DNA of 64,000 nt, taken from NCBI GenBank assembly GCA_017446095.1, contig JAFSRN010000016.1, positions 40,914-104,913 on the forward strand, given 5' to 3'. Below, piece by piece: positions 15,616 through 40,882 of the stretch. A program made the position numbers and the translations under genes. Position 1 is the stretch's first letter. Each line of letters begins with the position of its first letter. The notes beneath the pieces were generated by a model. The model was not told where the DNA came from. It did no database searches and worked only from the letters and a program-made list of their open reading frames with translations. The stretch comes from Eubacterium sp. GTDB lineage: Bacteria; Bacillota; Clostridia; Oscillospirales; Acutalibacteraceae.

Positions 15616-17919
15616 ATGATTAAGTATTTCGACGGCGGAATGGGCACCATGCTTAACCTTAAAGCAGGCGAACTTCCCGAACAACTGAATATCACCGACC
15701 CCGAGCGCGTGTTCGCCGTGCACAAGGCGTATGCAGAAGCAGGCGCAGACATCATCACAGCAAACACCTTCGGCGCAAATCCACTTAAGTACAATAATTG
15801 CGCGGAGGTTGTCGGCGCAGGCGTTGCGCTTGCAAAGCGTACGGGCAAAAAGGTTGCGCTCGACCTCGGTCCCACGGGCAAACTGCTAAAACCCATGGGC
15901 GACCTTGATTTTGAGGACTGCGTTGCGCTTTACGCAGAGGTTGTAAAAGCAGGGCGCAACGGCGCGGACATCGTTCTTATTGAAACCATGGGCGACACTT
16001 ACGAAATCAAGGCGGCTGTCCTTGCCGCAAAGGAAAACTGCGACCTGCCTGTTTTTGTGTCCATGATTTTTGACGAAAAGGGCAGGCTGCTCACTGGCGC
16101 GGACGTCAAAACGGCTGTCGCTATGTGCGAGGGGCTTGGCGTTGATGTTATCGGCTTTAACTGCGGGCTCGGTCCTGCGCAGATGATTCCGCTTGTTGAA
16201 GCGCTTGCGGCTTGTTCGTCCACGCCGATTATGGTTATGCCCAACGCAGGGTTGCCCGAATCGGTCAACGGCAACACCGTTTACAACGTTACACCCGATG
16301 AATTTGCAGGCTATATGCAGCAGATTGCGAATATCGGCGTGTCCTACCTCGGCGGTTGCTGCGGCACCACGCCCGACCATATCAAAGCGCTTATTGAGCG
16401 CACAAAGGATATTCCCGACCGCGTGCCGGATTACAAAAATACCACGCTCGTTTCAAGCTACAGCGAGTGCGTTGAGCTTGGCAAAAAAAGCGCGGTAATC
16501 GGCGAGCGCATTAACCCCACGGGCAAAAAGCTGCTTAAAGAGGCACTTCGCGCAGGCGATATGGACTACATTCTTAAAGAGGGTATCACGCAGCGCGAAT
16601 GCGGCGCGCACATCCTTGATGTAAACGTCGGTCTGCCCGAAATTGATGAGGTGCAGATGCTCACCGACGCTGTGTATCAGCTGCAGGCGGTACTTCCAAC
16701 GCCGCTTCAGCTCGACTCGTCCGACCCCGTGGCTATGGAAAAGGCGCTTCGCATTTACAACGGCAAGCCCATGATTAACTCGGCAAACGGCAAGGCAAAA
16801 TCTATGGCGGAAATCTTTCCGCTTGCAAAAAAATACGGCGGCGTTGTAGTCTGCCTCTGCCTTGACGAAACGGGTATCCCCGAGAGCGCCGAGGGCAGAA
16901 TCGCAATTGCCGAAAAAATGATTAATACTGCCGCGGAATACGGCATTGATAAGAAAAATCTTGTGGTCGACGCGCTGACCATGACCGTCAGCACAAACCA
17001 GCAGAACGCGGTTGAAACGCTTAAGGTCGTTGATTACTGCAAAAACACGCTCGGCGTTAACACTGTGCTCGGCGTGTCTAACATCAGCTTCGGTCTGCCG
17101 AACCGCGAGGTTGTTAACACCGCGTTTTACACGCAGGCGCTCGGCGCAGGACTGTCGGGCGGCATAATCAATCCCAAGTCGCAGAGTATGATGAACGCCT
17201 ACTACGCGTTCAACGCGCTTGCAGGGCTTGACGACAACTGCACGGAGTACATCAACTCCGCCGTTGCGGTTGAAACGGTTGCCGCTTCAACTGCCGAAAC
17301 CACGCTCAAGGACGCGATTATCAAGGGCATGAAGGACGAAAGCGCCGCCTGCGCAAAGGAACTTCTTAAAACTGCCGAACCGCTTGAGGTTATCAACGCG
17401 CACATCATCCCTGCGCTTGATACCGTGGGCGATGGCTTTGAGAAAAACAAGTTATTCCTGCCGCAGCTTCTTATGGCGGCGGACGCGGCAAAGGCAGCGT
17501 TTGACGAAATTAAGGCAAACCTTGTCAACAAGGGCACGCCGCAGGTTAAGGGCGACAAAATTATTGTTGCCACCGTTGAGGGCGACATCCACGATATCGG
17601 CAAAAACATCGTCAAGGTGCTTTTGCAGAACTACGGCTTTGACGTTATCGACCTCGGCAAGGACGTCAAGTGCGAAACCGTGCTTGAAAAAACTATCGAA
17701 CACGGCGTAAAATTTGTCGGACTCTCCGCGCTTATGACAACGACCGTGCCGAATATGGAAAAAACCATCAGGCTGCTGCACGCCAACACGGACGCAAAGG
17801 TGTTCGTCGGCGGCGCAGTGCTTACTAAAGACTACGCAAAAATGATCAACGCCGATTACTACGCAAAGGACGCTATGGAAAGCGTGCGCATTGCACAGCA
17901 ATTTTTCGGTAAGGGGTAA
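15616..17919 (+). CDS. metH: Cobalamin-dependent methionine synthase lacking the activation domain
   Basis: A 767-residue enzyme, against about 1,200 for full-length MetH. It has an N-terminal homocysteine-binding barrel (about 1-280) whose zinc ligands are Cys183 (FNCGLGP) and Cys248-Cys249 (GGCCGTTPDHI); a pterin-binding barrel (about 290-540: VIGERINPTGKK, LDVNVGLPEIDE, NSANGKAKSM); a helical cap (about 545-640); and a B12-binding Rossmann domain with D657-x-H659-x-x-G662 (EGDIHDIGKNIV). The reactivation domain is supplied by the preceding small gene. It transfers methyl from methyl-THF to homocysteine. This makes the organism dependent on corrinoid for this route, consistent with the cobalamin riboswitch at 33.6 kb. 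Confidence 0.93.
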   Translation: MIKYFDGGMGTMLNLKAGELPEQLNITDPERVFAVHKAYAEAGADIITANTFGANPLKYNNCAEVVGAGVALAKRTGKKVALDLGPTGKLLKPMGDLDFEDCVALYAEVVKAGRNGADIVLIETMGDTYEIKAAVLAAKENCDLPVFVSMIFDEKGRLLTGADVKTAVAMCEGLGVDVIGFNCGLGPAQMIPLVEALAACSSTPIMVMPNAGLPESVNGNTVYNVTPDEFAGYMQQIANIGVSYLGGCCGTTPDHIKALIERTKDIPDRVPDYKNTTLVSSYSECVELGKKSAVIGERINPTGKKLLKEALRAGDMDYILKEGITQRECGAHILDVNVGLPEIDEVQMLTDAVYQLQAVLPTPLQLDSSDPVAMEKALRIYNGKPMINSANGKAKSMAEIFPLAKKYGGVVVCLCLDETGIPESAEGRIAIAEKMINTAAEYGIDKKNLVVDALTMTVSTNQQNAVETLKVVDYCKNTLGVNTVLGVSNISFGLPNREVVNTAFYTQALGAGLSGGIINPKSQSMMNAYYAFNALAGLDDNCTEYINSAVAVETVAASTAETTLKDAIIKGMKDESAACAKELLKTAEPLEVINAHIIPALDTVGDGFEKNKLFLPQLLMAADAAKAAFDEIKANLVNKGTPQVKGDKIIVATVEGDIHDIGKNIVKVLLQNYGFDVIDLGKDVKCETVLEKTIEHGVKFVGLSALMTTTVPNMEKTIRLLHANTDAKVFVGGAVLTKDYAKMINADYYAKDAMESVRIAQQFFGKG

Positions 17920-28244: not shown

Positions 28245-28280
28245 GTATTCTTTTTTCAACTATCAGAAAGGAAACAAGCT

Positions 28281-29069: not shown

Positions 29070-29545
29070 TTAAAATTAACGTCGTTGCCGTCGGCAAGCT
29101 TAAGGAAAAATACCTGCGCGACGCAGTCGCCGAGTACGAAAAACGCATTTCGGCATACGCAAAAATCAATATTATCGAGGTTTCCGAGCACCGCTGCGGC
29201 GACAATCCGTCGCCTGCGGAAATACAAAAGGTGCTGCAAAAAGAGGGCGAGCAGATAATCGCAAAAATCCCCAAAGGCTCGTTTGTAATCCCGATGTGCA
29301 TCGAGGGCACGCAGAAAACGAGCGAGGATTTTTCAAAGGAAATCGAGCGCATTTCGCTCACAAGCAGCGAAATCACATTCGTAATCGGCGGCTCATTCGG
29401 GCTGTCAGACGAGGTAAAAGCCCTCGGCAAAATGAAGCTGTCATTTTCCAAAATGACCTTCCCGCACCAGCTTATGCGCGTAATCCTCCTCGAGCAAATC
29501 TACCGCGCGCTCTCAATTTCAAACAATTCAAAATACCACAAGTAA
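29066..29545 (+). CDS. rlmH: 23S rRNA (pseudouridine1915-N3)-methyltransferase
   Basis: A 159-residue SPOUT-class methyltransferase. It starts with INVVAVGKLKEKYLRDAVAEY and has the SAM-binding knot segments ITFVIGGSFGLSDEV and LSFSKMTFPHQLMRVILLEQ, followed by the very conserved C-terminal IYRALSISNNSKYHK. It methylates a pseudouridine in helix 69 of 23S rRNA on assembled 70S ribosomes. Length is exactly that of the family. The start overlaps the stop of yycJ (ATGA), so it is translationally coupled. Confidence 0.96.
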   Translation: MIKINVVAVGKLKEKYLRDAVAEYEKRISAYAKINIIEVSEHRCGDNPSPAEIQKVLQKEGEQIIAKIPKGSFVIPMCIEGTQKTSEDFSKEIERISLTSSEITFVIGGSFGLSDEVKALGKMKLSFSKMTFPHQLMRVILLEQIYRALSISNNSKYHK

Positions 29546-29574
29546 AAGCACTGCATATCGCGGTGCTTTTTGTG
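29544..29574 (+). terminator. Terminator of yycJ-rlmH
   Basis: AAAAGCACTG / CGGTGCTTTT stem with one mismatch-tolerant position, followed by TGTG. It begins at the rlmH stop codon. Confidence 0.75.
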
Positions 29575-29690
29575 TAGGGGACGGCGTCCTTGACGTCCCG
29601 TGGCGCGCTGTGCCCTTGATGCTTTTGTCACCGCGCCCTACAAAATACGCCCGAACAACCGTAGGGGCGATTCACGAATCGCCCGCGTGC
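29573..29690. repeat. Palindromic repeat island between rlmH and the HAAS-A gene
   Basis: A TGTAGGGG-to-CCCTACA element (29573-29642) is followed by GTAGGGGCGATTCACGAATC plus GCCCGC, identical to the modules at 36.15 and 40.80 kb. Confidence 0.72.
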
Positions 29691-29702
29691 CGTCGAGGTT
29701 GC

Positions 29703-31013
29703 TTATATTTTTTTATATTTGTCGTAAAAGCTCGCGTCCGACGGTACAACTTCATAATTCTTAAACACAAAGCCCTTGTCGGTATATGTGTAAACGACGG
29801 CGTCGTACGGCACAACCGCATCCTCTCTTGTGTCGTAATACGTCAGCTCAAGCTCAACATTGCCGTTTTTGTATTTGCTCAAAAACAGATACGCCGCAAA
29901 GGGTGCGTCAGCCAGATTTTTGTCCTTGCTTTTTGCAAACTTCTCAATTTTATCGGCAGAATTTCGGTCAATCGTACCGAGAAAATACTCGTCGTCGTAA
30001 TATAGATATGTGTTTACAGACAGCGTGCCGTCCTCGTTTTCAACAAGGTCAATTGTGGCGAACGAGGTTTTTGAATAGTAGACAATGCTGTTATAATCAT
30101 CGTTATCGTATGCGGCTTCGCTGTACAGTAGGTCGCCGATATTTCGCTCTGCCCAGTCTTGCAAATCTTCAAGATTTGTGCATTTTGCAAATTCGCCTGC
30201 ATTATCGGTTATGCGTGCGTTGATTTCGTCAATTTCGCTGCATATTGCCTGCTCGCTCTTTGCCGAATTAATTAGCGTGGCAGGGGTAATCACAACGCTT
30301 GCAATAAGCAAAACGGCGGCAAAAGCTTTTATAACAGCCTTTATTTTCAGATGCATTCGCGTGTTTTGTAATTTGCGCGTTTTTATGATAATAATTTTTG
30401 CCTCAATTGCGGCGGCAAGGGCAGCGGCTGCTAACACCACAAAAAGCAAGTTGAAAACAAAAAGCAGATTTTGGTGCTTTGTGTGTTCAAAAGTTCCCCG
30501 TATATACGCCTGTACAGGTAAGCCATAAGATAAGTTAATAATAAATCCTTTTAGCCCGTAAAACGCAGGAAGCGTTAAAAATATTGCCGAAACTAAATTG
30601 AGCACCCTGTTGTACTTCACGCCGAAAAACAGCGACAATGCATTAAGCAAAACAAGTATCGACAGGATAATTACATCTGCGGCAAAAACCAGCCTGACAA
30701 GGTCAATGTATTCCGCAACTGCAAGTATCATTATAGCCAAAGGCGTTATCAGGCACATCGCAAACAGTATACCGCTTGCAACATTTACCGCGGTTTTGCT
30801 TTTTGACACAGCCTCAAGCTGCTCGCCGACTACATCGCCGTCGCCCATAGAATCGTCGGCCTTGTTGGCTGCTGCTTCTTTCTCAAAGCCGCACTGCTCA
30901 AACCACTTCTCCTTTTCGTCAAGGTGGTCGTACAGCTCGTATTCAATTTTATCCTTTTCCCGCCTGTTCGTAATGTGCGACAGAACGGCAGTTATATATT
31001 TATATTTTTTCAT
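29703..31013 (-). CDS. HAAS/DUF1700-type membrane protein A (PadR-associated)
   Basis: A 436-residue protein. Residues 1-70 form a helical HAAS-type domain (YITAVLSHITNRREKDKIEY, then ELYDHLDEKEKWFEQCGFEKEA, ending MGDGDVVGEQLEAV) as found in DUF1700/DUF1129 permease-prefix proteins next to PadR regulators. Then come several transmembrane helices (about residues 78-255) and a C-terminal extracytoplasmic domain rich in Tyr/Asp (about 260-436) of unknown fold. Last gene of the padR operon. Its first 70 codons are nearly identical to those of HAAS-B, whereas the rest is unrelated. Function unknown; the family is thought to act in membrane sensing or as a target controlled by PadR. Confidence 0.7.
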   Translation of the reverse strand: MKKYKYITAVLSHITNRREKDKIEYELYDHLDEKEKWFEQCGFEKEAAANKADDSMGDGDVVGEQLEAVSKSKTAVNVASGILFAMCLITPLAIMILAVAEYIDLVRLVFAADVIILSILVLLNALSLFFGVKYNRVLNLVSAIFLTLPAFYGLKGFIINLSYGLPVQAYIRGTFEHTKHQNLLFVFNLLFVVLAAAALAAAIEAKIIIIKTRKLQNTRMHLKIKAVIKAFAAVLLIASVVITPATLINSAKSEQAICSEIDEINARITDNAGEFAKCTNLEDLQDWAERNIGDLLYSEAAYDNDDYNSIVYYSKTSFATIDLVENEDGTLSVNTYLYYDDEYFLGTIDRNSADKIEKFAKSKDKNLADAPFAAYLFLSKYKNGNVELELTYYDTREDAVVPYDAVVYTYTDKGFVFKNYEVVPSDASFYDKYKKI

Positions 31014-31023
31014 AGTGTTTCTT

Positions 31024-31078
31024 TGTAGGGGCGGGTTTCCAACCCGCCCGCGGAGCGTCGGGGTCGCCGTTCCCTACG
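31024..31078. repeat. Palindromic repeat reaching into the end of the HAAS-B gene
   Basis: TGTAGGGGCGGGTTTCC with AACCCGCCCG, then a CGGAGCGTCGGGGTCGCCG part and a terminal CCCTAC. On the minus strand the terminal GTAGGG provides the TAG stop codon of HAAS-B. Confidence 0.7.
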
Positions 31079-32948
31079 CTTGCGGCGGAGAAATAATATA
31101 TAAACCGTCATTATCAGCTTCTTCGGTTTTATAATAGTCGCTCTCAATAATAATGTTCAAGTTCTCAATCAGCTTTTCGTTCCTGATTTTTTTGATTGAC
31201 TCCTTGCTGTAATAATCCTCAATATCGCTGATTAGTGCCTCCGTGCTGCTGTAATTATCACTTTCATCCTCATCATCGCCGATATAATATCCGTAGAGGA
31301 GGTTTACACTCCACACGACATTTGCCGTGTCGCCGTCAAACTTAACTGCTTCTCGGTCGCCAAGGCAGCCGTGTGTGTGGTTTGCCGTTGAGTATATGCC
31401 CGAGGTGGGTATAAAGGTATAATAGTGGTAGCTGAATTCAATCATATACGCGTCTGCAACCTTGTTGTAAAACGCGGTGTGTATCTGCAGCCACAGCAAC
31501 TCGTCCTTGCTCTCGGGTGCGTCGTAATTTCTAATTTCCGCTTTGAGTGCTTCAATCTGCTTTTTCGTCAAATCAACAGTTTCGTATTTTGCTTCGCTGT
31601 TGTAAACAAGCTCAAACCTTTTTGTCTTTTTGTTGTACTCAAATTCAAGCTCTTTGTCATCGTCGTAATCAACGCTAACAATAGCACCGTCGCCCGTGGT
31701 AAATTCTATATCTGCAGGCAGCGGAAGGTCGCTTAAATCTTTTACGCAGCTCAAATCCTCGCTTGTTTTAAACGACTCATAACGGTCGTTATACAGCGAA
31801 AACGGGTCGCCGTAAAAAGAGTTAAAATGCAAATAATAGTGTTCGCTTTTTTCCAGATTGTTATAGTACGAATCGTATAAATCCTCATCGACACGACCGT
31901 CACCGGTGGGGAAATAGTATTCGTATATTTCTAAATAATTGTTTTTGGCAGTTCTTTCCTCTAATGAATCATCGGTCTTTGTTTCGGTTACCGCGCTTTC
32001 AACGGACTTCAGGTACTCGTCAAACGCCTTGCGGTGCGCTTTTTTATCAGCTGTGTTCAGCTTGTCAATCTGCTTTATCAGCTGTGATTGGGTAAACTCA
32101 AGCTGCTCGGTTGCTTCGGCTTTTCTGTATTCTCTCTCGTTTGCAATTTGCGTTGTCAGCGCCGTAAAGCAGCACGCGCACAGCAGGGAAGCGGCAGCCA
32201 AGATATAAACAACTACCTTCTTTACACTCAAATCGCGCCTTGTGTTTTCAAGACGTTTTGTTCTGCCGAATATCCTCAAACCGCAGATAAACGCCGCCAA
32301 TAATAAGCCGCCGAAAACGACAATAAGCACCGTGTTAAACGTGCCGGACACGCTGAAAAACGCATTGCTGAAATAGTCCTGTTTGAAAAAGAAATCAAGA
32401 TAATCCTCACCGCGGATTAATTTGTTTATAACATCAGAGTAGTGGTACGGACCGAGCACGACTACCATCTCCGCCACTGCAAAGCCTGCAAAAAATGCGT
32501 ATTTGTTTAGCCTTTTCAGCCCCACAGTCATTGTGATTAAGCCGAACACAAAAACAAAAGTGAACCTTGCAAACGATTCAAAGTGCGGCATAGTGAACAA
32601 AAAGCGCATATCCTCGTAGAATGGTCCGTCATACTTTGAACCCGCACCGGTCATTATTAACTCAACATATGTGTAAAATGCGCTGAACAAGCAAAGGTTT
32701 GCAAGCATGGTCGGAAATCCCTTTGCAAAAAACGATTTCTTTATTGCTTCAAGCTGCTCGCCTACTACGTCGCCGTCGCCCATAGACTCGTCGGCTTTGT
32801 TGGCTGCCGCTTCTTTCTCAAAGCCGCACTGCTCAAACCACTTTTCCTTTTCGTCAAGGTGGTCGTACAGCTCGTATTCAATTTTATCCTTTTCCCGCTT
32901 GTTCGTAATGTGCGACAAAACGGTTGTGATGTATTTGTAGTTCTTCAT
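31074..32948 (-). CDS. HAAS/DUF1700-type membrane protein B with large extracytoplasmic domain
   Basis: A 624-residue protein starting with the same HAAS domain as its neighbour (residues 1-70, differing at only a handful of positions). It is followed by transmembrane segments (about 80-260), a coiled-coil-prone stretch (about 265-330, RKAEATEQLEFTQSQLIKQI) and a long acidic, Tyr-rich outer domain with no recognised family. The start follows AAGGAAA; the longer open frame upstream runs through a repeat and is rejected. The stop codon is supplied by the edge of a palindromic repeat, so the C-terminus may have been altered by repeat insertion. Middle gene of padR-HAAS-B-HAAS-A. Confidence 0.7.
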   Translation of the reverse strand: MKNYKYITTVLSHITNKREKDKIEYELYDHLDEKEKWFEQCGFEKEAAANKADESMGDGDVVGEQLEAIKKSFFAKGFPTMLANLCLFSAFYTYVELIMTGAGSKYDGPFYEDMRFLFTMPHFESFARFTFVFVFGLITMTVGLKRLNKYAFFAGFAVAEMVVVLGPYHYSDVINKLIRGEDYLDFFFKQDYFSNAFFSVSGTFNTVLIVVFGGLLLAAFICGLRIFGRTKRLENTRRDLSVKKVVVYILAAASLLCACCFTALTTQIANEREYRKAEATEQLEFTQSQLIKQIDKLNTADKKAHRKAFDEYLKSVESAVTETKTDDSLEERTAKNNYLEIYEYYFPTGDGRVDEDLYDSYYNNLEKSEHYYLHFNSFYGDPFSLYNDRYESFKTSEDLSCVKDLSDLPLPADIEFTTGDGAIVSVDYDDDKELEFEYNKKTKRFELVYNSEAKYETVDLTKKQIEALKAEIRNYDAPESKDELLWLQIHTAFYNKVADAYMIEFSYHYYTFIPTSGIYSTANHTHGCLGDREAVKFDGDTANVVWSVNLLYGYYIGDDEDESDNYSSTEALISDIEDYYSKESIKKIRNEKLIENLNIIIESDYYKTEEADNDGLYIISPPQA

Positions 32949-32958
32949 AGTGTTTCCT

Positions 32959-33041
32959 TGTAGGGGCGATTCATGAATCGCCCGCAATAGTTTTGCCGTG
33001 CGCAGCACCCTAAATTCATAATTTATAATTCATAACTCATA
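32959..33041. repeat. Palindromic repeat and tandem AATTCATAA units downstream of padR
   Basis: TGTAGGGGCGATTCATGAATC plus GCCCGC, then a 30-bp block (32981-33010) that is identical to 33477-33506 on the other side of padR, then degenerate 8-9 bp units such as AATTCATAATTTATAATTC. Confidence 0.75.
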
Positions 33042-33047
33042 ATGAAT

Positions 33048-33374
33048 TTACGCCAGTCCAAGCACCTTGTTTACTGCGCCTGAATAAACCTGAAATTCCT
33101 CTTTTTTCTCCTTGAGCATCGATTTGCCCTTGCGCGTGATGTGGTAGTATTTGCGCTTTTTAGTTTCCATATCCACCCAGTAGCTCTCAAGGTAGCCAGC
33201 GTCCTCAAGCGAGTGAAGAATGGGGTAGAGTGTGCCTTCCTTAAGGCAGAACACCTTTTCGCTGCGCGCTTCAAGCTCTCTTATAATTTTGTAGCCATAC
33301 ATATCCTCCTCTGCCAGCACGGACAGCACGAGCGCCGCTGTTGAGCCTTTTAACAATTCCTTACTGATTTGCAT
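33048..33374 (-). CDS. PadR-family transcriptional regulator
   Basis: A 108-residue winged-helix protein: LLKGSTAALVLSVLAEEDMY, GYKIIRELEA, then the recognition-helix and wing region LKEGTLYPILHSLEDAGYLE and KRKYYHITRKGKSML, all standard for short PadR proteins of subfamily 2. The start is the second ATG in ATGATTATG, 7 nt after GGAGG; the first ATG is too close to the ribosome site. It heads an operon with two HAAS-domain membrane proteins, the usual genetic setting for this type. A near-perfect palindrome overlapping its own transcription start suggests autorepression. Confidence 0.9.
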   Translation of the reverse strand: MQISKELLKGSTAALVLSVLAEEDMYGYKIIRELEARSEKVFCLKEGTLYPILHSLEDAGYLESYWVDMETKKRKYYHITRKGKSMLKEKKEEFQVYSGAVNKVLGLA

Positions 33375-33393
33375 AATCATACCTCCTGTTGAT

Positions 33394-33447
33394 AAGTACA
33401 TAGTAATTCTATGCACTTATGATAACACAGTATGTTTGATTTGTCAA
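33394..33447 (-). promoter_or_regulatory. padR promoter with palindromic operator
   Basis: Minus-strand TTGACA (-35, 33442-33447), 17-bp spacer, TATCAT (-10, 33419-33424). Directly downstream, AAGTACATAG and CTATGCACTT (33394-33418) form a 10-bp inverted repeat with one mismatch and a 5-bp centre covering the expected start of transcription. Confidence 0.78.
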
Positions 33448-33452
33448 GGCTT

Positions 33453-33545
33453 CGTAGGGGCGGGTTTCCCAACCCGCCCGCAATAGTTTTGCCGTGCGCA
33501 GCACCCACTTCGCGCCGCGTGCCGTCGGGGGCGCCGACCCCTACA
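33453..33545. repeat. Composite TIR-bounded repeat upstream of padR and the riboswitch
   Basis: Begins CGTAGGGGCGGGTTTCCC, ends GCGCCGACCCCTACA; the 8-bp ends are inverted with one mismatch. It contains the second copy of the 30-bp block found at 32981-33010. Confidence 0.75.
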
Positions 33546-33559
33546 AAGGTTAAAATATC

Positions 33560-33588
33560 TTGAAACGCCACTATTAATATGTTATAAT
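33560..33588 (+). promoter_or_regulatory. Promoter of the cobalamin riboswitch transcript
   Basis: TTGAAA (-35), 17-bp spacer, perfect TATAAT (-10); transcription should start near 33595, just ahead of the aptamer. Confidence 0.82.
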
Positions 33589-33591
33589 ATA

Positions 33592-33885
33592 CAGGCAAAG
33601 TCCAAACTAACGGAAGCAGGTGCGAATCCTGCACAACCGCCATTACCGTATTTGACGTTAATGCAAGTCATTTTGCCATTGCGAGAGCGAGAAGGCGACT
33701 TGCATTGTCCTAAGTCGGGAGACGAGTTTAGGATTTTATTCACACTCTTGGGCAAGCGGAAGAGTTGGCAACGTAATTCAAATCTGCCATTTTAAACCGG
33801 TTTTGGATTCGTATTGCGTTGCCTGAATGTTGCGTTTTATTTGTTGCGCTCATTTCACTCTGCCCGGGGGCAGAGTTTTATTTTT
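33592..33885 (+). promoter_or_regulatory. Cobalamin riboswitch with terminator expression platform
   Basis: The aptamer core shows the conserved blocks of the AdoCbl/cobalamin class: GGAAGCAGGTGCGAATCC followed by TGCACAACCGCCATTACCGT (33611-33650), and later AAGTCGGGAGAC (33712-33723) flanked by CCTAA / TTAGG. A long-range stem GGCAACG (33767-33773) / CGTTGCC (33817-33823) follows, then an intrinsic terminator just before the ribosome site. The arrangement predicts that cobalamin binding favours termination, lowering expression of the secreted protein downstream. The class assignment rests on motif recognition, not on a covariance search. Confidence 0.87.
33858..33885 (+). terminator. Riboswitch-controlled intrinsic terminator
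   Basis: CTCTGCC / GGCAGAG stem, 4-nt loop, then TTTTATTTTT. It ends immediately before GGAGG, the ribosome site of the next gene, as expected for a transcription-attenuating riboswitch. Confidence 0.85.
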
Positions 33886-33896
33886 GGAGGTATAAA

Positions 33897-35513
33897 ATGA
33901 AAAAAGTATTATCACTCACGCTGGCACTTGTAATGCTCATTTCAAGCTTCAGCACACTTACTGTTTTTGCGGCGCCTAAAACGCAGGGCACGGCAGATTT
34001 AAACACGCAGATTTCAAAGGCTGCCGACTATGCCGCAAGTCAGATGATTCAAGGCGGCAGCATTGCAGGGCTCAGCTATCAGGACTGCTGGACGCTTGTT
34101 GAAGCCGGCTACGACCTGAACACTTACGAGGCACTTTATCTTGCAAGGCTCGATAACGACCTTAGCAAAAACAGCGGCAAAATCATCATTGAAGGTGAAG
34201 AATGGTATCAGGACGCTGAAGGCAATTGGCAGTCGTATTCCTACAGCTATGAGGATATCGCCGTTTACGCTGCAGCTATTCTTACGCTGAACAAAATGGG
34301 TATAGACGTAACAAACTACAACGGCTACAACCTCACCACCCCGTTTTTGAACTTCGATTTAAGCAAGATTTCAAACCCGTATTCCTACAGGCTCGCAACT
34401 TACGCGGCAATCAGCGTGTTAAAAAACAGCGAGTTTGCCCGCACGCTTGCAGAGGATATGATTTCCCGCTTCTACACGCTCGGCAAGGGTTTGGATTACT
34501 ACGGCTTTTCCTGCGATAACACAGGTCAGTTCCTTGCTGCGCTTTATCCGCTTGTTGTAAATAACGTTAATTTAAAGAAATACAACCTTGATAAATACGT
34601 TGACGACGCTTGCGGCGTTATTAAGACCTTTACCAAGGAAAACGGCGCGTATGCTGACGAAGTTTACGTTACAACCGTAAACGCAGACTCAACTGCGCTT
34701 GCTATGCTCGGCTTCTCTGCAGCGCTCGACGTAGAAAATGCGTACTGGTACTACCAGATGCTTATCGACGGCTTCTACAATGCTTCCACCGGAGCATTTA
34801 TGGCTGTAAACAGCAGCGGCGAGATTGCGGACAACCTTTACGCAACAAAGGACGCGCTTGTTTCGCTCACACGCTTTAAGGATGTTGTTGCGCTTGTTCA
34901 CTACTACGATGATGCAGACACGGTTTACAGCCCTGCAGGCTTTAACCACAACGGTTTCTACCTCGGCAAGTGCCCGATTTGCGGCGATTTGCACAATGTA
35001 ACAGTTCCTGCGCTTGACAGCATCACCCTTTCAAACACAAACTACGTTTACAACGGCAAGGCTAAAAGACCTGCGGTTACCGTTAAGGACGTCAAGGGCA
35101 CGCCTGTTGACAAAAAGTACTACACCGTAACTTACAAGTCAAACAAGAACGTCGGCAAAGGCACCGTTACAATTACCTTTAAAGGCATTTACACAGGCAC
35201 GGTTAATAAGAGCATCAAGATTGTTCCGCAGGGTACTTCTGTCTCCGCGTTCACCGTTGCAAGAAAAGGCTTTACCGTATCGTGGAAAAAGCAGGCAACG
35301 CAGACAACGGGCTATCAGGTTCAGTACAGCGCAACTTCAAAGTTCACAAAGTCCAAAACCCTCACGGTTAAAAAGAACAGCACCACCAAAAAGGCAGTAG
35401 GCAAGCTTGCTGCAAACAAAAAGTACTTTGTTCGCGTGCGCACATACAAAACCGTAAACGGCAAAAACTACTATTCAAAATGGTCTGCCGCAAAATCGGT
35501 TAAAACAAAATAA
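33897..35513 (+). CDS. Secreted alpha/alpha-toroid protein under cobalamin riboswitch control, putative corrinoid-binding protein
   Basis: A 538-residue secreted protein. A signal peptide (about residues 1-25, cleavage near TVFAA) precedes an alpha-helical repeat region (about 35-355) with pairs such as YEDIAVYAAAILTLNKMGID, YRLATYAAISVL and SFSCDNTGQFLAAL-like segments, which look like the prenyltransferase/terpenoid-cyclase alpha/alpha toroid also used by intrinsic factor and haptocorrin. A CPIC pair (Cys359, Cys362) ends it. Then comes an Ig-like repeat (about 368-447: YVYNGKAKRPAVTVKD ... VGKGTVTITFKG) and a fibronectin type III-like domain (about 448-538). The lysine-rich end has no sortase motif. 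The start follows a strong GGAGG. Since the gene is controlled by a cobalamin riboswitch, an extracellular corrinoid-capture role is likely, but binding itself is inference. Confidence 0.75.
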   Translation: MKKVLSLTLALVMLISSFSTLTVFAAPKTQGTADLNTQISKAADYAASQMIQGGSIAGLSYQDCWTLVEAGYDLNTYEALYLARLDNDLSKNSGKIIIEGEEWYQDAEGNWQSYSYSYEDIAVYAAAILTLNKMGIDVTNYNGYNLTTPFLNFDLSKISNPYSYRLATYAAISVLKNSEFARTLAEDMISRFYTLGKGLDYYGFSCDNTGQFLAALYPLVVNNVNLKKYNLDKYVDDACGVIKTFTKENGAYADEVYVTTVNADSTALAMLGFSAALDVENAYWYYQMLIDGFYNASTGAFMAVNSSGEIADNLYATKDALVSLTRFKDVVALVHYYDDADTVYSPAGFNHNGFYLGKCPICGDLHNVTVPALDSITLSNTNYVYNGKAKRPAVTVKDVKGTPVDKKYYTVTYKSNKNVGKGTVTITFKGIYTGTVNKSIKIVPQGTSVSAFTVARKGFTVSWKKQATQTTGYQVQYSATSKFTKSKTLTVKKNSTTKKAVGKLAANKKYFVRVRTYKTVNGKNYYSKWSAAKSVKTK

Positions 35514-35521
35514 TTATATAT

Positions 35522-35551
35522 GGGAGGGTATATTCACCCTCCCGTTTTTAT
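35522..35551 (+). terminator. Terminator of the toroid-protein gene
   Basis: GGGAGGGT / ACCCTCCC stem with a 6-nt loop, followed by GTTTTTAT. It is similar to the GGGAGGGTC repeat palindromes at 21.08, 28.2 and 40.86 kb. Confidence 0.85.
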
Positions 35552-35577
35552 ACAAAAAAGTTTTTGTGAAAAAATAC

Positions 35578-35606
35578 TTGACATACGGACATACTATTGA
35601 TATAAT
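35578..35606 (+). promoter_or_regulatory. Promoter of gpx
   Basis: Consensus TTGACA (-35), 17-bp spacer, TATAAT (-10), 55 bp before the start codon; the strongest consensus match in this part of the window. Confidence 0.88.
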
Positions 35607-35660
35607 AGCATTGTAATCAATTGCACACAATTTAATTTTACAAAACCGGAGGAAAGAAAA

Positions 35661-36125
35661 ATGAACGTTTTAGATTTCAAAGTATTGTCACAAAAAGGCG
35701 AAGAAGTTGCACTTGAGCAGTACAGGGGCAAGGTTCTTCTTATCGTAAACACAGCAACCCACTGCGGTTTCACACCTCAGTACAACGGACTTGAGGCTAT
35801 GTACAAAAAGTACAAGGATCAGGGCTTCGAGGTGCTTGACTTCCCGTGCAACCAGTTTGCATTCCAGGCAAGGGAGAGCGACGAGGGTATCAACAAGGTT
35901 TGCTCGCTTAAGTTTGGCACAACCTTCCCGCGCTTCAAAAAAATCAAGGTTAACGGCAAGGACGCAGATCCGCTTTACAAGTATCTTGTTGAGCAGACAG
36001 GCGGCGCAAAAATCGGCTGGAACTTCACAAAATTCCTCATCGACCGCGACGGCAATATCGTAGAGCGCTTCGGCTCAAAGGTAACACCTGAAGAAATCGA
36101 AGCAAAGGTAGAGGAAATCTTATAA
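35661..36125 (+). CDS. gpx: Glutathione peroxidase family thiol peroxidase
   Basis: A 154-residue cytoplasmic peroxidase of the Cys-type Gpx family. The peroxidatic residue is Cys35 (NTATHCGFTPQY; cysteine, not selenocysteine), with the FPCNQF motif (Cys63, Gln65) and WNFTKFLI supplying the other active-site residues; Cys81 (NKVCS) is a candidate resolving cysteine. Bacterial members of this kind usually take electrons from thioredoxin rather than glutathione, which fits the thioredoxin reductase-like and thioredoxin genes 0.1-1 kb downstream. It has a strong GGAGG ribosome site and its own promoter, pointing to high expression. Confidence 0.92.
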   Translation: MNVLDFKVLSQKGEEVALEQYRGKVLLIVNTATHCGFTPQYNGLEAMYKKYKDQGFEVLDFPCNQFAFQARESDEGINKVCSLKFGTTFPRFKKIKVNGKDADPLYKYLVEQTGGAKIGWNFTKFLIDRDGNIVERFGSKVTPEEIEAKVEEIL

Positions 36126-36129
36126 GTAA

Positions 36130-36213
36130 GTGGACAGGGAACAGTGTACCGTAGGGGCGATTCACGAATCGCCTGACACTAATTCCGAATTCCGCATTCC
36201 TAATTCCGAATTG
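36130..36213. repeat. Repeat island: GTGGACAGG, GTAGGGGCGATTC palindrome and ATTCCGAATT units
   Basis: GTGGACAGGGAACAGTG, then GTAGGGGCGATTCACGAATC with GCC, then degenerate tandem units AATTCCGAATTCCGCATTCC. It lies between gpx and the reductase gene. Confidence 0.72.
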
Positions 36214-36223
36214 AGGTAAAACT

Positions 36224-37081
36224 ATGTACGACGTTATAATTATCGGCGCGGGTCCCGCGGGCATATCTGCGGCGCTGTACGCAAAGCGCGCAAACAAAAG
36301 CGTGCTTGTGCTGTATCACGGCGAATCCCAGCTTGAAAAAGCGCATATGATTGACAATTACTACGGCTTTGCAGGCGGCATCACAGGCAAGCAGCTCTAT
36401 GCCGACGGCATTGCGCAGGCGCGCGAGCTCGGTGTTGATGTCAAAAACGAGGAGGTCACTCACATTCAGATGACCGCCTCTATGACATACGAAGTCACCG
36501 CTGCCGAAAAGTATGAGGGCAAAACGCTCATCCTCGCAACGGGCAACAAAAAAATACGCCCCAACATCAAGGGCGTTGCAGACTTCGAGGGCAAGGGCGT
36601 CAGCTACTGCGCTATCTGCGACGGATTTTTCTACCGCAAAAAAACCGTTGCCGTGCTCGGCGCAGGCGACTACGCTTTGAGCGAAGCCGGCGACCTTGAA
36701 AACATTGCGCAAAAGGTGTATATTATAACTGACGGCGAGCCTGCGCCCGATACCGATAAGTACGAGGTGATTACAAAGAAAATCGCCGAGGTTAAGGGCG
36801 AGGCAAAAATCAGCACCGTTGTTTTTGACGACGGCAGCGAGCTTGCGATTGACGGTCTGTTCATCGCGCTCGGCGTTGCAGGCGGCGCGGATTTTGCCAA
36901 AAAGCTCGGCATTGCGCTTGACGGCGACAGCATTAAGGTCAACGCCGATATGAGCACAAACATCCCGGGGGTTTACTCCTGCGGCAACGTCACGGGCGGA
37001 CTTTTGCAGGTGTGCAAGGCTGTCTATGAGGGCGCGGAGGCTGGACTTTCGGCAGTAAAATATCTTAAAAGTAAGGAGTAA
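36224..37081 (+). CDS. Thioredoxin reductase-like flavoprotein, likely ferredoxin-dependent type
   Basis: A 285-residue protein, shorter than the usual 310-320. It has the FAD motif [17 protein letters not shown], the redox pair Cys129-A-I-Cys132 (SYCAICDGF) and the C-terminal FAD segment PGVYSCGNVTGGLLQ. The region that binds NADPH in normal TrxB is altered: the GGGxxA motif reads VLGAGDYALSEA, and the HRRxxxR phosphate-binding motif is replaced by ITDGEP. Loss of these motifs is the feature of ferredoxin-dependent flavin thioredoxin reductases known from clostridia. It is followed 5 bp later by thioredoxin, its evident substrate. Electron donor assignment is inference. Confidence 0.82.
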   Translation: MYDVIIIGAGPAGISAALYAKRANKSVLVLYHGESQLEKAHMIDNYYGFAGGITGKQLYADGIAQARELGVDVKNEEVTHIQMTASMTYEVTAAEKYEGKTLILATGNKKIRPNIKGVADFEGKGVSYCAICDGFFYRKKTVAVLGAGDYALSEAGDLENIAQKVYIITDGEPAPDTDKYEVITKKIAEVKGEAKISTVVFDDGSELAIDGLFIALGVAGGADFAKKLGIALDGDSIKVNADMSTNIPGVYSCGNVTGGLLQVCKAVYEGAEAGLSAVKYLKSKE

Positions 37082-37086
37082 TAATT

Positions 37087-37392
37087 ATGGTTAAAGAGAT
37101 TACAGAGGCTAATTTTGAGCAGGAAGTTATGAATTCCGGCAAGACTGCGCTTATCGATTTTTACGCAGTATGGTGCGGTCCGTGCAAGATGATGTCACCC
37201 GTTGTTGACGAGATTGCAGAGGAGAATCCGGACATCGTTGTTGGCAAAATCGACGTTGACGAAAACGAAGAGCTTGCAGCAAAGTTCGAGGTTATGTCAA
37301 TCCCGACAATCCTTGTTATCAAGGACGGCGCTGTGGCGGAAACGTTTATCGGCGTTACACCTAAGGAAAACATTTTAGCTGCAATCGGCTAA
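37087..37392 (+). CDS. trxA: Thioredoxin
   Basis: A 101-residue thioredoxin with the classic active site WCGPCKMM (about residues 29-36), preceded by LIDFYAVW, and the cis-proline segment MSIPTILVIKDG. Length is near the family norm. It begins 5 bp after the reductase-like gene and ends before a terminator, so reductase and thioredoxin form a two-gene unit. Likely targets include the Gpx encoded just upstream and ribonucleotide reductase. Confidence 0.95.
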   Translation: MVKEITEANFEQEVMNSGKTALIDFYAVWCGPCKMMSPVVDEIAEENPDIVVGKIDVDENEELAAKFEVMSIPTILVIKDGAVAETFIGVTPKENILAAIG

Positions 37393-37406
37393 AACAATAA
37401 AGGATT

Positions 37407-37432
37407 CAGGCACCCTCACAGGTGCCTGTTTT
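37407..37432 (+). terminator. Terminator after trxA
   Basis: CAGGCACC / GGTGCCTG, 8-bp perfect stem, 6-nt loop, then TTTT. The next start codon is only 9 bp beyond the T-run. Confidence 0.82.
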
Positions 37433-37441
37433 GGTATAGGT

Positions 37442-38617
37442 ATGAAAAAGATTAAGTTATTATCGGTTATCCTTGCTGTGATTCTGCTGTTTTCGTCCTG
37501 CGCAAAGAGCGAGCCGACAGTTAAAGCAGATCCGGAAAACTTCAAAACCAACTACACATTTGTTTTTGTTCACGGTCTTTCGGGCTGGGGCAGTTACGAT
37601 TTTCAGAATCATTTTCTCAAATACTGGGGTATGCGCGGCGGCGATTTGATGAAGTACCTGAACAATCAGGGCTTTACCTGCGTAAGCGCGTCCGTCGCAC
37701 CGCACGGCAGCGCGTGGGACAGAGCGTGCGAGCTGTACGCGCAGCTTACGGGCAGCGTGGTTGATTACGGCGCGGAGCACAGCAAGCGCTGCAAGCACGA
37801 CCGTTTTGGCACGGATTATTCCAAAAAGCCGCTGATTGATAAGTGGGATGCGGAAAATAAAATCAACCTGCTCGGTCACTCGTTCGGCGGCGCAACTGTA
37901 AGGCTGCTCTCCGAGCTTATGGCAAACGGCAGCGAAGCAGAGCAAAAGGCAACCGCCAAGGACGACCTTTCGCCCCTCTTTACAGGCGGCAAGGCGGACT
38001 GGATTTACAGCATCACCGCGCTTGCTTCACCGCACAACGGCACCACCGCGTACGACGTGGGCGGCGTTGAGGACGATGTGACCAACACCTTCAAGTACAA
38101 AGTGCAGGATAAGCTCAACAGCGTTATGGCTTCCGCTAACAAGGAGGAGGACAACGGCAGGGCTGATTTTGACAATGCGAATTACGATATGCTGCTCGAT
38201 AATGCCAAGGCGCTCAACGACAGCATCAGCACGCTCGGGAATGTGTACTATTTCTCTATTCCGTGCTCGTCCACTATCAAGCAGGACGACGGTACATACA
38301 CCCCGGACGAGAGTAAGACGGAGACGCTTTTCGCCAAGACCTCGCGCCTTATGGGCAAGTTTACCGAAACGTCAGAGGGCGGTATTGTCGCCGACGAAAC
38401 GTGGTTTGAAAACGATGGGCTTGTAAACACGATTTCCGCGCGCGCCCCCTTCGACGCACCGCAGACCGAGTACAAGGAGGGCGAAGTCAACCCCGGCGAA
38501 TGGAACATTATGCCCACCTTCGACGGCGACCATATGTCCCTGCAGGGCGGATTGATGAAAACAAAAGATGTGCGTGATTTTTATACAAAACATCTGTCTA
38601 TGATAAATTCTCTGTAA
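37442..38617 (+). CDS. Lipoprotein lipase related to staphylococcal/Geobacillus lipases
   Basis: A 391-residue protein with a lipoprotein signal (LSVILAVILLFSSCAKSEP; lipobox LFSSC, modified Cys near residue 20). The mature part has the oxyanion region FVFVHGLSGWGSYDF, the segment VDYGAEHSKRCKHDRFGTDY that is very typical of family I.5/I.6 lipases, and the nucleophile elbow GHSFGG with Ser147. Calcium and zinc-site residues of that family appear partly kept. It should be an outer-face triacylglycerol lipase or esterase. There is no clear ribosome site or promoter between the trxA terminator and the start, so expression may depend on read-through. Confidence 0.82.
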   Translation: MKKIKLLSVILAVILLFSSCAKSEPTVKADPENFKTNYTFVFVHGLSGWGSYDFQNHFLKYWGMRGGDLMKYLNNQGFTCVSASVAPHGSAWDRACELYAQLTGSVVDYGAEHSKRCKHDRFGTDYSKKPLIDKWDAENKINLLGHSFGGATVRLLSELMANGSEAEQKATAKDDLSPLFTGGKADWIYSITALASPHNGTTAYDVGGVEDDVTNTFKYKVQDKLNSVMASANKEEDNGRADFDNANYDMLLDNAKALNDSISTLGNVYYFSIPCSSTIKQDDGTYTPDESKTETLFAKTSRLMGKFTETSEGGIVADETWFENDGLVNTISARAPFDAPQTEYKEGEVNPGEWNIMPTFDGDHMSLQGGLMKTKDVRDFYTKHLSMINSL

Positions 38618-38629
38618 AAAAGAACCAAC

Positions 38630-38663
38630 GACCGAAAGATATTTGCTCTTTCGGTCTTTTTTT
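38630..38663 (+). terminator. Terminator of the lipase gene
   Basis: GACCGAAAG / CTTTCGGTC, 9-bp perfect stem, followed by seven T. Confidence 0.88.
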
Positions 38664-38675
38664 GCATGAAATTCC

Positions 38676-38704
38676 TTGTATTAGTGGACAAAAAGTAGTA
38701 TAAT
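38676..38704 (+). promoter_or_regulatory. Promoter of the HAD phosphatase gene
   Basis: TTGTAT (-35), 17-bp spacer, TATAAT (-10), 26 bp before the start codon. Confidence 0.72.
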
Positions 38705-38730
38705 GTGTATTAACGAAAGGAAGCATACCC

Positions 38731-39357
38731 ATGAACGCATACGATTTTGATGAAACAATCTTTTACCCCGACAGCGCAATTTCTTTCGCTTTCTGGTGCG
38801 CAAAACGCAAACCGAAACTGTGGTTTAACTTTGTGCCCAAGGTTATGAAGTGCCTCGTGCAGTATAAAAAAGGCAAGTTGCCGCGTTACAAACTTGAACG
38901 CACTTTTTTCAGTTACTTAACGCAGATTGACGATTTTGACGAGCAGATAGAGGCGTTCTGGGATAAAAACGAGAGCAATATATCCAAATGGTATCTTGAG
39001 CAGAAAAAGCCTGACGATTTGATTATCAGCGCTTCTCCCGTCTGTATTATAGCGCCGATTGCAAAGCGTCTGGGCGTAAACTATGTTGCGACGGAATATG
39101 ACAAGGAGTACGATGTTTTTGTCGACAATCTGATGTATGCAAAGGAAAAGGCGAAGTATATTCTTGACCACGATTTTCCCGTGATAGAGAATTTTTATTC
39201 GGATTCTCTGTCGGACACGCCGCTTGCTCTGCTTGCGGAAAAAGCGCACCTTGTCACAAACAAAGCGCAAACGGTTACCGACTGGCCCAAACTTGATGTT
39301 GAAACGCTTAAAGAGGTCCGCAAAAAAATTGACACGGGCTGGAATATACATCTGTAA
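38731..39357 (+). CDS. HAD superfamily hydrolase, subfamily IB-like phosphatase
   Basis: A 208-residue HAD phosphatase. Motif I is at the very start, YDFDETIFYPDSA (nucleophilic Asp5 and acid/base Asp7), followed by a helical cap (about 20-95), motif II LIISASP and a C-terminal motif IV region FYSDSLSDTPLALLAEKAHLV with acidic metal ligands. The layout resembles phosphoserine phosphatase-like IB enzymes found with lipid or phosphoester metabolism. Substrate unknown. It is a single gene with AAAGGAAG ribosome site and a shared bidirectional terminator. Confidence 0.83.
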   Translation: MNAYDFDETIFYPDSAISFAFWCAKRKPKLWFNFVPKVMKCLVQYKKGKLPRYKLERTFFSYLTQIDDFDEQIEAFWDKNESNISKWYLEQKKPDDLIISASPVCIIAPIAKRLGVNYVATEYDKEYDVFVDNLMYAKEKAKYILDHDFPVIENFYSDSLSDTPLALLAEKAHLVTNKAQTVTDWPKLDVETLKEVRKKIDTGWNIHL

Positions 39358-39362
39358 AACAA

Positions 39363-39390
39363 AACGGTGAACGAATTTTCGTTCACCGTT
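39363..39390. terminator. Bidirectional terminator between the HAD gene and fumC
   Basis: AACGGTGAACG / CGTTCACCGTT, 11-bp perfect stem with loop AATTTT, followed by T-rich sequence in both directions. Confidence 0.87.
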
Positions 39391-39402
39391 TATTAATGTT
39401 TA

Positions 39403-40776
39403 TCACACCATTTCTTCGGGTTTGAAAACCTTGTCAAATTCCTCTGCAGAGAGAAAGCCGAGCGATACGCACGCTTCCTTTAGCGAGATGTCCTCGGCGT
39501 ACGCTTTCTTGGCGGTTTTCGCCGCGTTTTCGTAGCCGATGTAGGGGTTGAGCGCCGTTACCAGCATCAGCGAATCGTGCAGGTTGCGGTGCATTTTTTC
39601 CCTGTTTGCGGTTATTCCCACAGCGCAGTTGTCGTTAAACGATTTAATCGCGTCCGCAAGCAGCCTTGCCGATTGCAGGAAGTTGTAAATAGTCACGGGC
39701 ATAAACACGTTGAGTTCAAAGTTGCCCTGACTCGCCGCAAAGCCTACCGCCGCGTCGTTGCCCATAACCTGCACGGCAACCATCGTCAGCGCCTCGCACT
39801 GCGTGGGGTTGACCTTGCCCGGCATTATCGATGAGCCCGGCTCGTTTTCGGGTATTTTGATTTCGCCCAGACCGAGCCGCGGTCCGCTTGCGAGCCAGCG
39901 CACGTCGTTTGCAATCTTCATCAGGTCAGTTGCAAGCGCCTTGAGCGCGCCGTGCGCAAACACGATTTCGTCCTTCGATGTCAGCGCGTGGAACTTGTTT
40001 TCCGCTGTGCAGAAGGTCTGCTCTGTGATTTCGCTTATCTTTTCCGCCACCAATCGGTCAAAGCCCTCGGGCGCATTCAGCCCTGTGCCGACTGCCGTGC
40101 CGCCGAGCGCAAGCTCCTTGAGTTCGGCTTTTGCGCTAATCAGAAGGCTTGCGTCTTTATCAAGGCTTGCGCGCCAGCCGCTGATTTCCTGCGAAAAGGT
40201 AATCGGCGTAGCGTCCTGCAGGTGAGTTCTGCCGCTTTTAACAATGCCCTCGTTCTCTTCTTCAAGTCGCTCAAAGGTGCGTTGTAATTCAAACAGCGGC
40301 TTGAGCAGCTTGTCAATGCTCAGCACCGCCGCAATGTGCATAGCGGTGGGGAAGGTGTCGTTTGAGCTCTGGCTCATATTGATATCGTCGTTCGGGTGGC
40401 AGAGCTTTTTGCCCGCAAGCTCGTTCGCGCGGTTTGCAATAACCTCGTTCGCGTTCATATTCGACTGCGTACCCGAGCCCGTCTGCCACACAACAAGCGG
40501 AAAATGCTCGTCAAGCGCACCGCTTGCAACCTCGTCGCAGGCTTTGCAGATAACCTCAAGCTTCTCGTCAGTCATTTTTTCGGGGCGAAGCTCGTGGTTC
40601 GCAAGCGCGGCAGCCTTTTTCAGCAAACCGAACGCGTGCGTAATCTCACGCGGCATAACCTCTATGCCTTCGCCGATTTTAAAGTTATCCTTGCTGCGCT
40701 GCGTCTGTGCGCCCCAGTATTTATCGGCAGGTACTTTAACCTCACCCATAGAGTCGTGTTCAATGCGATAATCCAT
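39403..40776 (-). CDS. fumC: Class II fumarate hydratase
   Basis: A 457-residue enzyme of the fumarase/aspartase superfamily that hydrates fumarate to malate. The N-terminus [20 protein letters not shown] is typical, followed by [35 protein letters not shown] and the signature [16 protein letters not shown] containing the catalytic loop. Length is normal. The start is the second of two close ATGs, 7 nt after GGAG. A much longer upstream open frame crosses a repeat and is not part of the gene. It is a single gene; class II is iron-independent and oxygen-stable, in contrast to the class I enzyme common in anaerobes. Confidence 0.95.
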
Positions 40777-40795
40777 AGTCATTCTCCTGTTATTA

Positions 40796-40882
40796 TGTAG
40801 GGGCGATTCACGAATCGCCCGCGGGTCGTCGGGGACGCCGACCCCTACAATTAATGGGAGGGCACGGAGACCCTCCCCTACA
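40796..40882. repeat. Two TIR-bounded palindromic repeats, fumC-transporter gap
   Basis: First element 40796-40849 begins TGTAGGGG and ends CCCCTACA (perfect 8-bp inverted ends) and contains GGCGATTCACGAATCGCC and a GTCGGGGACGCCGAC palindrome. A second half-element with GGGAGGG...CCCTCCCCTACA ends at 40882. Confidence 0.78.

Follow-up and report, generated by a model that had tools for sequence, protein, structure and literature searches.

A riboswitch-controlled secreted toroid protein of Eubacterium sp. as candidate half of a split, transcobalamin-like corrinoid-capture system

A stretch of 64,000 nucleotides from Eubacterium sp. (assembly GCA_017446095.1, contig JAFSRN010000016.1, positions 40,914 to 104,913; hereafter the window) carries a cobalamin riboswitch followed by the gene of a secreted protein of 538 residues, P0001. 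The N-terminal part of P0001 is predicted to fold as an alpha/alpha toroid, and a protein with a DUF4430 domain (PF14478), known as the C-terminal domain of vertebrate transcobalamins (PMC4350170), is encoded on another contig of the same genome. From sequence comparison, it is likely that P0001, displayed on the envelope, takes part in corrinoid capture together with the DUF4430 protein, in a transcobalamin-like system split between two genes. The earlier note on this DNA had proposed a corrinoid-capture protein. That proposal is supported by the conserved pairing of riboswitch and toroid, by homology of the fold and by linkage or fusion with DUF4430; it had missed the separate DUF4430 partner. 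P0001 alone is probably half of the binding unit, because intrinsic factor and transcobalamin also have a beta domain, which lies here on a separate gene.

Riboswitch and Expression Platform

The earlier note had read a consensus promoter, a cobalamin aptamer and an intrinsic terminator abutting the ribosome site in the leader of the gene, and each of these was recovered:

33560..33588, plus strand: sigma-70-type promoter TTGAAA-17-TATAAT, 11 of 12 consensus positions (consensus match only)
33612..33723, plus strand: cobalamin riboswitch aptamer (covariance model RF00174), 48.9 bits, gathering score 31.5
33744..33765, plus strand: P13-like hairpin 3' of the aptamer, ACTCTT-GGGCAAGCGG-AAGAGT (from folding energies and loop conservation)
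33857..33876, plus strand: intrinsic terminator of the expression platform, 8 pairs followed by TTTATTTTTG
33886..33890, plus strand: ribosome-binding site GGAGG (from the sequence), 9 bases after the terminator stem
33897..35513, plus strand: open reading frame (ORF) of the secreted toroid protein P0001, 538 residues, start codon at 33897

The aptamer was matched with an E-value of 3.5e-9 in the scan of 64 kb and of 2.1e-11 when the short stretch was searched alone, and by its score it is a member of RF00174. The match spans positions 47-167 of the 189 of the model, the outer part of which is unmatched; 56 of the 58 matches in congeners span the full model (1-189). It is the sole RF00174 match in the 2.09 Mb of the window genome under stricter filters (the assembly is estimated to be 97% complete, which holds for all absences reported for this genome). 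A chance match was considered and rejected, the position being conserved across the genus. The presence of a cobalamin riboswitch in front of the toroid gene is as good as shown. The promoter taken alone is weak evidence, since shuffled sequences yield nearly as many such sites (3.8, against 5 found); terminator-like sites numbered 5, with 3.7 in shuffles.

Leaders of 59 riboswitches (58 from congeners and that of the window) were examined; 26 do not hold the aptamer core string and were not scored. Among the 33 scored, the hairpin loop string TTGGGCA was found in 26, on stems that vary (ACTCTT/AAGAGT, ATTCTT/AAGAAT and ATCCTT/GAGGAT, among others), and a terminator-like hairpin was present in 30. 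The names P13 and L5 follow general usage, and a loop-loop contact between L5 and L13, as described in the literature, is assumed, not computed. In the window leader, GGGC and AGAGT of the hairpin can pair alternatively with ACTCTGCCC in the 5' arm of the terminator, and this pairing is proposed as the antiterminator. Forced folds of 33724-33885 gave -46.3 kcal/mol for the antiterminator and -46.8 kcal/mol for hairpin plus terminator; by computation, terminator and antiterminator both lie within 2 kcal/mol of the minimum, as in a platform able to switch. Such near-equal energies suit a switch tipped by ligand binding.

Secreted Protein and Its Fold

The following features were assigned within and just behind the coding region:

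33897..33974, plus strand: signal peptide, residues 1-26, Sec-type by eye, MKKVLSLTLALVMLISSFSTLTVFA-AP
34002..34895, plus strand: domain predicted to fold as an alpha/alpha toroid (residues ~36-333) and proposed to form the alpha half of a transcobalamin-like clamp for corrinoids
34971..34982, plus strand: CPIC motif, residues 359-362, inside the surface tail (from the sequence)
35016..35216, plus strand: immunoglobulin (Ig)-like domain, about residues 374-440, by eye
35241..35477, plus strand: fibronectin type III (FN3) domain, residues 449-527, PF00041, 30.3 bits, cut-off 25
35520..35545, plus strand: terminator-like site 3' of the toroid gene (consensus match only)

This is the domain order that had been read from the letters, of which the FN3 domain is called by Pfam and the Ig-like domain is not. 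Given the terminator-like site behind the gene, its transcript is probably monocistronic.

When full-length P0001 was searched against Pfam, NCBIfam and the PDB, FN3 and similar tail matches were returned, or none. No match to a known toroid family was obtained directly: none figured in the list of 25 families (E up to 1) for the 37 toroids of alignment A3, and in the PDB the profile of the toroid family found nothing below E 0.5. The fold was reached through more distant relatives. A3 holds the toroid of the window and those of 36 of 39 loci; the three omitted are L183 (no toroid ORF call), L200 (too short) and L199 (truncated). Its profile was compared with that of alignment A6, which holds 17 toroids from the class and two from genomes of the same order, and the two aligned over 257 columns with a probability of 98.7% and E 2.3e-16. 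As negative controls, A3 gave 0.1% with the DUF4430 alignment and 0.2% with fumarase, a helical enzyme (three sequences). Within the toroid part, the A6 profile in turn matched squalene-hopene cyclase (1gsz) at E 3.1e-14, and three of its members exceed the PF00432 cut-off of 26.5 bits (L263, 33.4; L265, 32.0; L266, 32.6). A profile of 16 genus proteins matched 32 of the 184 ORFs in the class-level loci, and all 32 are among the 45 that were matched with the profile of the toroids from fused proteins. The toroid-like helical domain of the earlier note therefore holds up. Because A3 is homologous to A6 and A6 matches 1gsz and PF00432, the assignment of residues ~36-333 to an alpha/alpha toroid of the terpene-cyclase/prenyltransferase type is well supported by profile homology. 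No DUF4430 match was found in P0001, and its alpha toroid does not share a chain with a beta-grasp domain, the latter being encoded by another gene.

The tail is, judging from its recurrence, a generic surface module (CPIC, Ig-like, FN3) that says nothing about the ligand. A search with the whole protein across 98 related genomes gave 15 matches in the window genome; among the nine listed, the gene itself covers residues 1-538 and the eight others begin at residue 341 or beyond. The tail is uninformative on corrinoids because it recurs alone in these other proteins, and a ligand-binding role for the Ig, FN3 and CPIC part was rejected. In some congeners the tail is replaced by an LPXTG-like end, such as SPQTG or SPATG with a hydrophobic stretch (by eye); in the single protein of this kind that was scanned, the Pfam anchor scored 15.6 bits, under its cut-off of 20. 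S-layer homology (SLH) domains (PF00395) were found in six of eight class-level toroid proteins scanned. Different lineages seem to show the same domain on the envelope by means of different anchors.

Candidate DUF4430 Partner and Genomic Linkage

The genus set consisted of 60 genomes; it yielded 58 riboswitches in 55 genomes other than that of the window, whose own copy was excluded. Toroid and DUF4430 genes were called with hidden Markov models (HMMs) built from genus sequences, within 1.5 kb downstream or, for a divergent gene, 600 bases. The pairing seen in the window recurs in relatives: a toroid gene lies downstream of 48 of the 58 riboswitches. Eight of the other ten have DUF4430 in a giant downstream gene or in a divergent gene, and two have neither (the second riboswitch of G028, which stands before an FN3/Ig surface protein, and that of G057, on a short contig). 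DUF4430 (PF14478) was found in 59 of the 60 genomes, mostly in single copy. Among the 48 toroid cases, its gene is divergent beside the riboswitch in 15 and lies between riboswitch and toroid in 11; G029 is a twelfth genome of the latter kind by coordinates. In the window genome (G000) one such gene was found:

G000:C1:91024-91731, minus strand: DUF4430 protein, 235 residues, PF14478, 54.6 bits, cut-off 23.8

A lipobox was recognized by eye in its product, which also has a spacer rich in Thr. In a PDB search, DUF4430 returned 18 rows of XIAP/IAP and one muramidase at E 0.4-0.9, with transcobalamin-2 last of 20. This ranking was discarded as evidence of homology with transcobalamin, and the family link is taken from PF14478 and published work.

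Fusion and operon structure were also found in relatives. In a genome of the same order (G092, locus L111), a single chain joins toroid and DUF4430, and behind its gene come those of CbiQ/EcfT, of a double ATP-binding cassette (ABC) ATPase and of the S component of an energy-coupling factor (ECF) transporter. Congener G008 has a DUF4430 gene divergent from the riboswitch, with genes for CbiQ and for a fusion of ABC-ABC-S type behind it. At the level of the class, a toroid/DUF4430 profile (queries from four same-order relatives) matched 105 of 291 genomes at E 1e-15. Forty high-scoring loci in 39 genomes were chosen (G176 twice); further places in genomes already taken were passed over, as were G354, G167 and G172. 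Toroid and DUF4430 are fused in 15 of these loci, adjacent in 22 and together in neither way in three, counts that are biased to fused or full-length cases by the two-domain profile used for picking. RF00174 was matched in 15 of the 40 (11 of the first 20 and four of the second), always upstream of the toroid ORF and on its strand; the stretches included about 4 kb upstream, and some reached contig ends.

These arrangements bear on the possibility that the toroid catches corrinoids alone, diffusible or on the surface like haptocorrin, while the DUF4430 lipoprotein serves a later uptake step and no joint site exists. The toroid and DUF4430 genes are on different contigs in the remaining 21 toroid-case congeners and in the window genome (G000:C10 and G000:C1, respectively), and isolated alpha and beta domains are reported to be each able to bind cobalamin (PMC11107200). 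The divergent or operonic pairing in 26 congener genomes points to a joint site, as does the one-chain fusion in same-order relatives and in the 15 class-level loci. A toroid that works on its own is unlikely.

Several further arrangements were observed around these genes. Giant surface proteins of 1225-2613 residues, with one DUF4430 and no toroid HMM call, stand behind the riboswitch in seven congeners (G008, G011, G021, G025, G038, G048 and G055; L090-L093, L122, L141 and L148, of which L092 was checked with Pfam). At L112:235-9519, two cobalamin riboswitches are followed by genes for a 1150-residue protein with a dockerin domain, for two others that carry a cohesin domain and DUF4430, respectively, and for a fusion of ABC-ABC-ECF S type, so that cellulosome-type joining parts occur within a presumed B12 uptake operon. 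At L240:621-6641, a riboswitch of 109 bits is followed by a 715-residue PQQ_2 beta-propeller protein, a DUF4430-like protein and a toroid-DUF4430 fusion, and a further DUF4430-like ORF immediately precedes the riboswitch (DUF4430 being called there by our own HMM). The propeller presumably resembles B12 binders of the BtuG type.

In many congeners an extra N-terminal domain of ~200 residues, with the motif FSVYDG..EPT..VTADLSDKYG, precedes the toroid (L078-L080, L085, L088, L089, L094). In two further genomes this domain has a gene of its own, which immediately precedes the gene for toroid-DUF4430 or the one corresponding to it (L111:3636-4421 in G092; L113:7561-8373 in G096). Comparison of the domain (NB) with DUF4430 by hhalign was negative (7.3%). 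In the long congener proteins, it may be a second beta-grasp domain.

Probable Corrinoid Requirement and Import

The B12-dependent metH pointed out earlier is present in the window, in a short form:

15616..17919, plus strand: short metH-type gene, 767 residues, with the only PF02310 match of the genome

Pfam identified a homocysteine S-methyltransferase, a pterin-binding and two B12-binding domains in its product, and no C-terminal activation domain was among the matches. The best NCBIfam match was metH with 450.8 bits, under the full-length cut-off of 1010.85. By its domain content the product is a short MetH, and it is the presumed consumer of the captured corrinoid. The earlier note had also seen no btuFCD next to the toroid gene and no B12-synthesis genes in the window. 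The first observation extends to the whole assembly: the FecCD (BtuC-type) permease had no match in the window genome, and the same search was positive in 13 of 14 control genomes, so that a btuFCD system elsewhere in the genome was rejected. The second agrees with the lack of a match to CobS, the sole synthesis gene searched for. One CbiQ/EcfT and eight matches to ECF S components, four of them over the cut-off, were detected. This gene content suggests that the organism is auxotrophic for corrinoids and imports them through an ECF transporter.

A B12-regulated surface protein might also bind no corrinoid at all and act, for example, as an adhesin or enzyme, with the riboswitch sensing for another programme. 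Alpha/alpha toroids occur in diverse roles, and profile comparison places terpene cyclases nearest among solved structures; the tail of the protein is generic, and the second riboswitch of G028 precedes a surface protein with neither toroid nor DUF4430 call. This explanation is very unlikely in view of the association with DUF4430 and the ECF-type operons of L111, L112 and G008. Corrinoid scavenging is also the best fit for a genome that has a single riboswitch and a single PF02310 protein.

The ligand of the pair could be cobinamide, a cobamide with another lower ligand or another tetrapyrrole in place of cobalamin. The corrinoids of the gut are diverse, which counts for such a ligand. During the review of PMC1796856, a referee brought up the diversity of ligands in the clade, and the authors agreed. 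The cobalamin-family aptamer points to corrinoids as a class and cannot fix which of them is bound; we consider a ligand other than cobalamin distinctly unlikely.

Proposed Mechanism

Joint capture by P0001 and the DUF4430 protein would proceed as follows. At low intracellular cobalamin, strands of the leader hairpin would capture the 5' arm of the terminator by base pairing and the toroid gene would be transcribed; with cobalamin bound, the aptamer would hold the hairpin, the terminator would form and the gene would be off (a presumed OFF switch). The exported toroid would be displayed by its Ig/FN3 tail, or by LPXTG-like or SLH anchors in relatives. Toroid and DUF4430 lipoprotein would then close over the corrinoid like the separated halves of transcobalamin, and the corrinoid would be handed to an importer other than BtuCD, most likely of the ECF type, for use by MetH. 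That the halves clamp the corrinoid in trans on the envelope and pass it to an ECF importer, with the riboswitch setting the supply of the alpha half, is a tentative proposal, to which we give somewhat less than an even chance. The beta domain and the alpha6/alpha6 barrel enclose B12 between them (PMC6257451, PMC11107200). Human TC-alpha and TC-beta, made separately, assemble in a cobalamin-dependent manner (PMC5599065), and intrinsic factor cleaved into the fragments IF30 and IF20 keeps tight binding (PMC6257451). A clamp from two genes is mechanistically sound because these separated domains and cleaved proteins still bind.

Besides the unlinked genes described above, a number of results weigh against joint capture. 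No riboswitch was found in four of the 60 genus genomes, G033 has a riboswitch and DUF4430 and no toroid call, and 25 of the 40 class-level loci had no riboswitch in the stretch taken. The 2.5 kb searched around the DUF4430 gene of the window genome (L076:7800-10300) held no riboswitch either, and that of the L111 operon scored 28.5 bits, under the cut-off. The unconstrained minimum of the window leader (33724-33885; -48.2 kcal/mol) keeps the terminator, so the antiterminator is not the computed minimum. Neither PF01122 nor any chain of transcobalamin or intrinsic factor was listed for the toroid family in the Pfam and PDB searches; against the same-order fused proteins alone, A3 gave 60% and E 8.5e-5 over 103 columns, which was judged too weak by itself. 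The DUF4430 profile matched the beta domain of human transcobalamin-2 (5no0) at E 1.5, which is not significant. No convincing homologue of the S component of the L111 operon was found in the window genome (best E 0.007).

Other Features of the Window

A short palindromic intergenic repeat with the core GTAGGGGCG occurs in seven exact copies against 0.27 expected (window 28190-40881), and GTAGGGG in 18 copies over 1295-61913 against 2.2 expected. One repeat element (33454-33544) immediately precedes the riboswitch promoter, and the leader of congener G050 holds an insert that looks similar by eye. Three minus-strand genes lie at lower coordinates than this element:

29703-31013 and 31074-33008, minus strand: two adjacent paralogous membrane proteins, with an N-terminal stretch of ~60 residues around IEYELYDHLDEKEKWFEQCGFEKEAAANKAD in common
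33048-33416, minus strand: small regulator-like gene beside the membrane-protein pair, PadR-type by eye

Comparison with Known Systems

A gut-genome survey detected a known B12 transporter in only just under half of the variants that are auxotrophic for B12 (PMC6593275). The toroid family is a testable candidate for B12 acquisition in bacteria that have no known importer, and it offers two handles on a B12 catcher: the riboswitch marks the gene, and the partner is the beta domain of animal transcobalamin. No experiments on bacterial toroid/DUF4430 proteins were found in the titles and abstract openings listed by literature searches, which covered few papers of subscription journals and no bioRxiv preprints.

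Surface capture of B12 before import has been described in gut commensals for the B12-binding BtuG and DUF4465 proteins of Bacteroides (PMC6143338, PMC13398666). Unlike the proteins considered here, these belong to other families and to Gram-negative bacteria, and BtuG partners the outer-membrane transporter BtuB (PMC6143338). The cobalamin transporter ECF-CbrT is the type of importer expected where BtuCDF is missing (PMC5997447), and locus L111 has CbiQ, ABC and S components beside its toroid-DUF4430 protein; in the part of that paper available, ECF-CbrT is described with no extracellular binding protein, unlike what is proposed for the window.

With animal transcobalamin, intrinsic factor and haptocorrin, the system shares an extracellular alpha/alpha toroid and a beta-grasp DUF4430 partner, from which a clamp is proposed (PMC4350170, PMC1796856, PMC6257451, PMC11107200). 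It differs from these carriers in its separate chains, its bacterial surface tail, its control by a riboswitch and its lack of a sequence match to PF01122, transcobalamin or intrinsic factor. If the proposal holds, the split transcobalamin would assemble in trans upon ligand binding, the corrinoid itself gluing the halves.

The closest precedent is the set of bacterial surface proteins with a transcobalamin-like SLBB domain and an alpha/alpha toroid that was described by Burroughs, Balaji, Iyer and Aravind (2007; PMC1796856) and predicted to scavenge B12. Their genes generally lie in CbiO/CbiQ operons of Gram-positive bacteria that usually do not have key enzymes of B12 synthesis; SLBB domains that stand alone were reported too, as was a further extracellular SLBB protein encoded in the operon, and the animal B12 carrier was proposed to have been acquired from low-GC Gram-positives (PMC1796856). 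The present finding bears on that proposal. If the split reading is correct, this lineage would hold either a surviving intermediate or a later splitting of the bacterial system proposed as the source of animal intrinsic factor. The phrase "cobalamin riboswitch" does not occur in PMC1796856. The earlier note knew of no characterized protein with the domain order of P0001. As a kind, such a protein was foreseen in 2007: with the proteins described then (PMC1796856), the present family shares signal peptides, modules of Ig type or for anchoring, CbiO/CbiQ operons and the association of a toroid with SLBB/DUF4430. Unlike the proteins of 2007, in which the toroid is described as fused to SLBB, the toroid of the window stands alone with its partner on another gene, has diverged past detection by Pfam, and is tied to a cobalamin riboswitch across the genus. 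Measured against the available part of the 2007 account, in which fused bacterial versions were already predicted, the split, riboswitch-controlled and highly diverged form is new.

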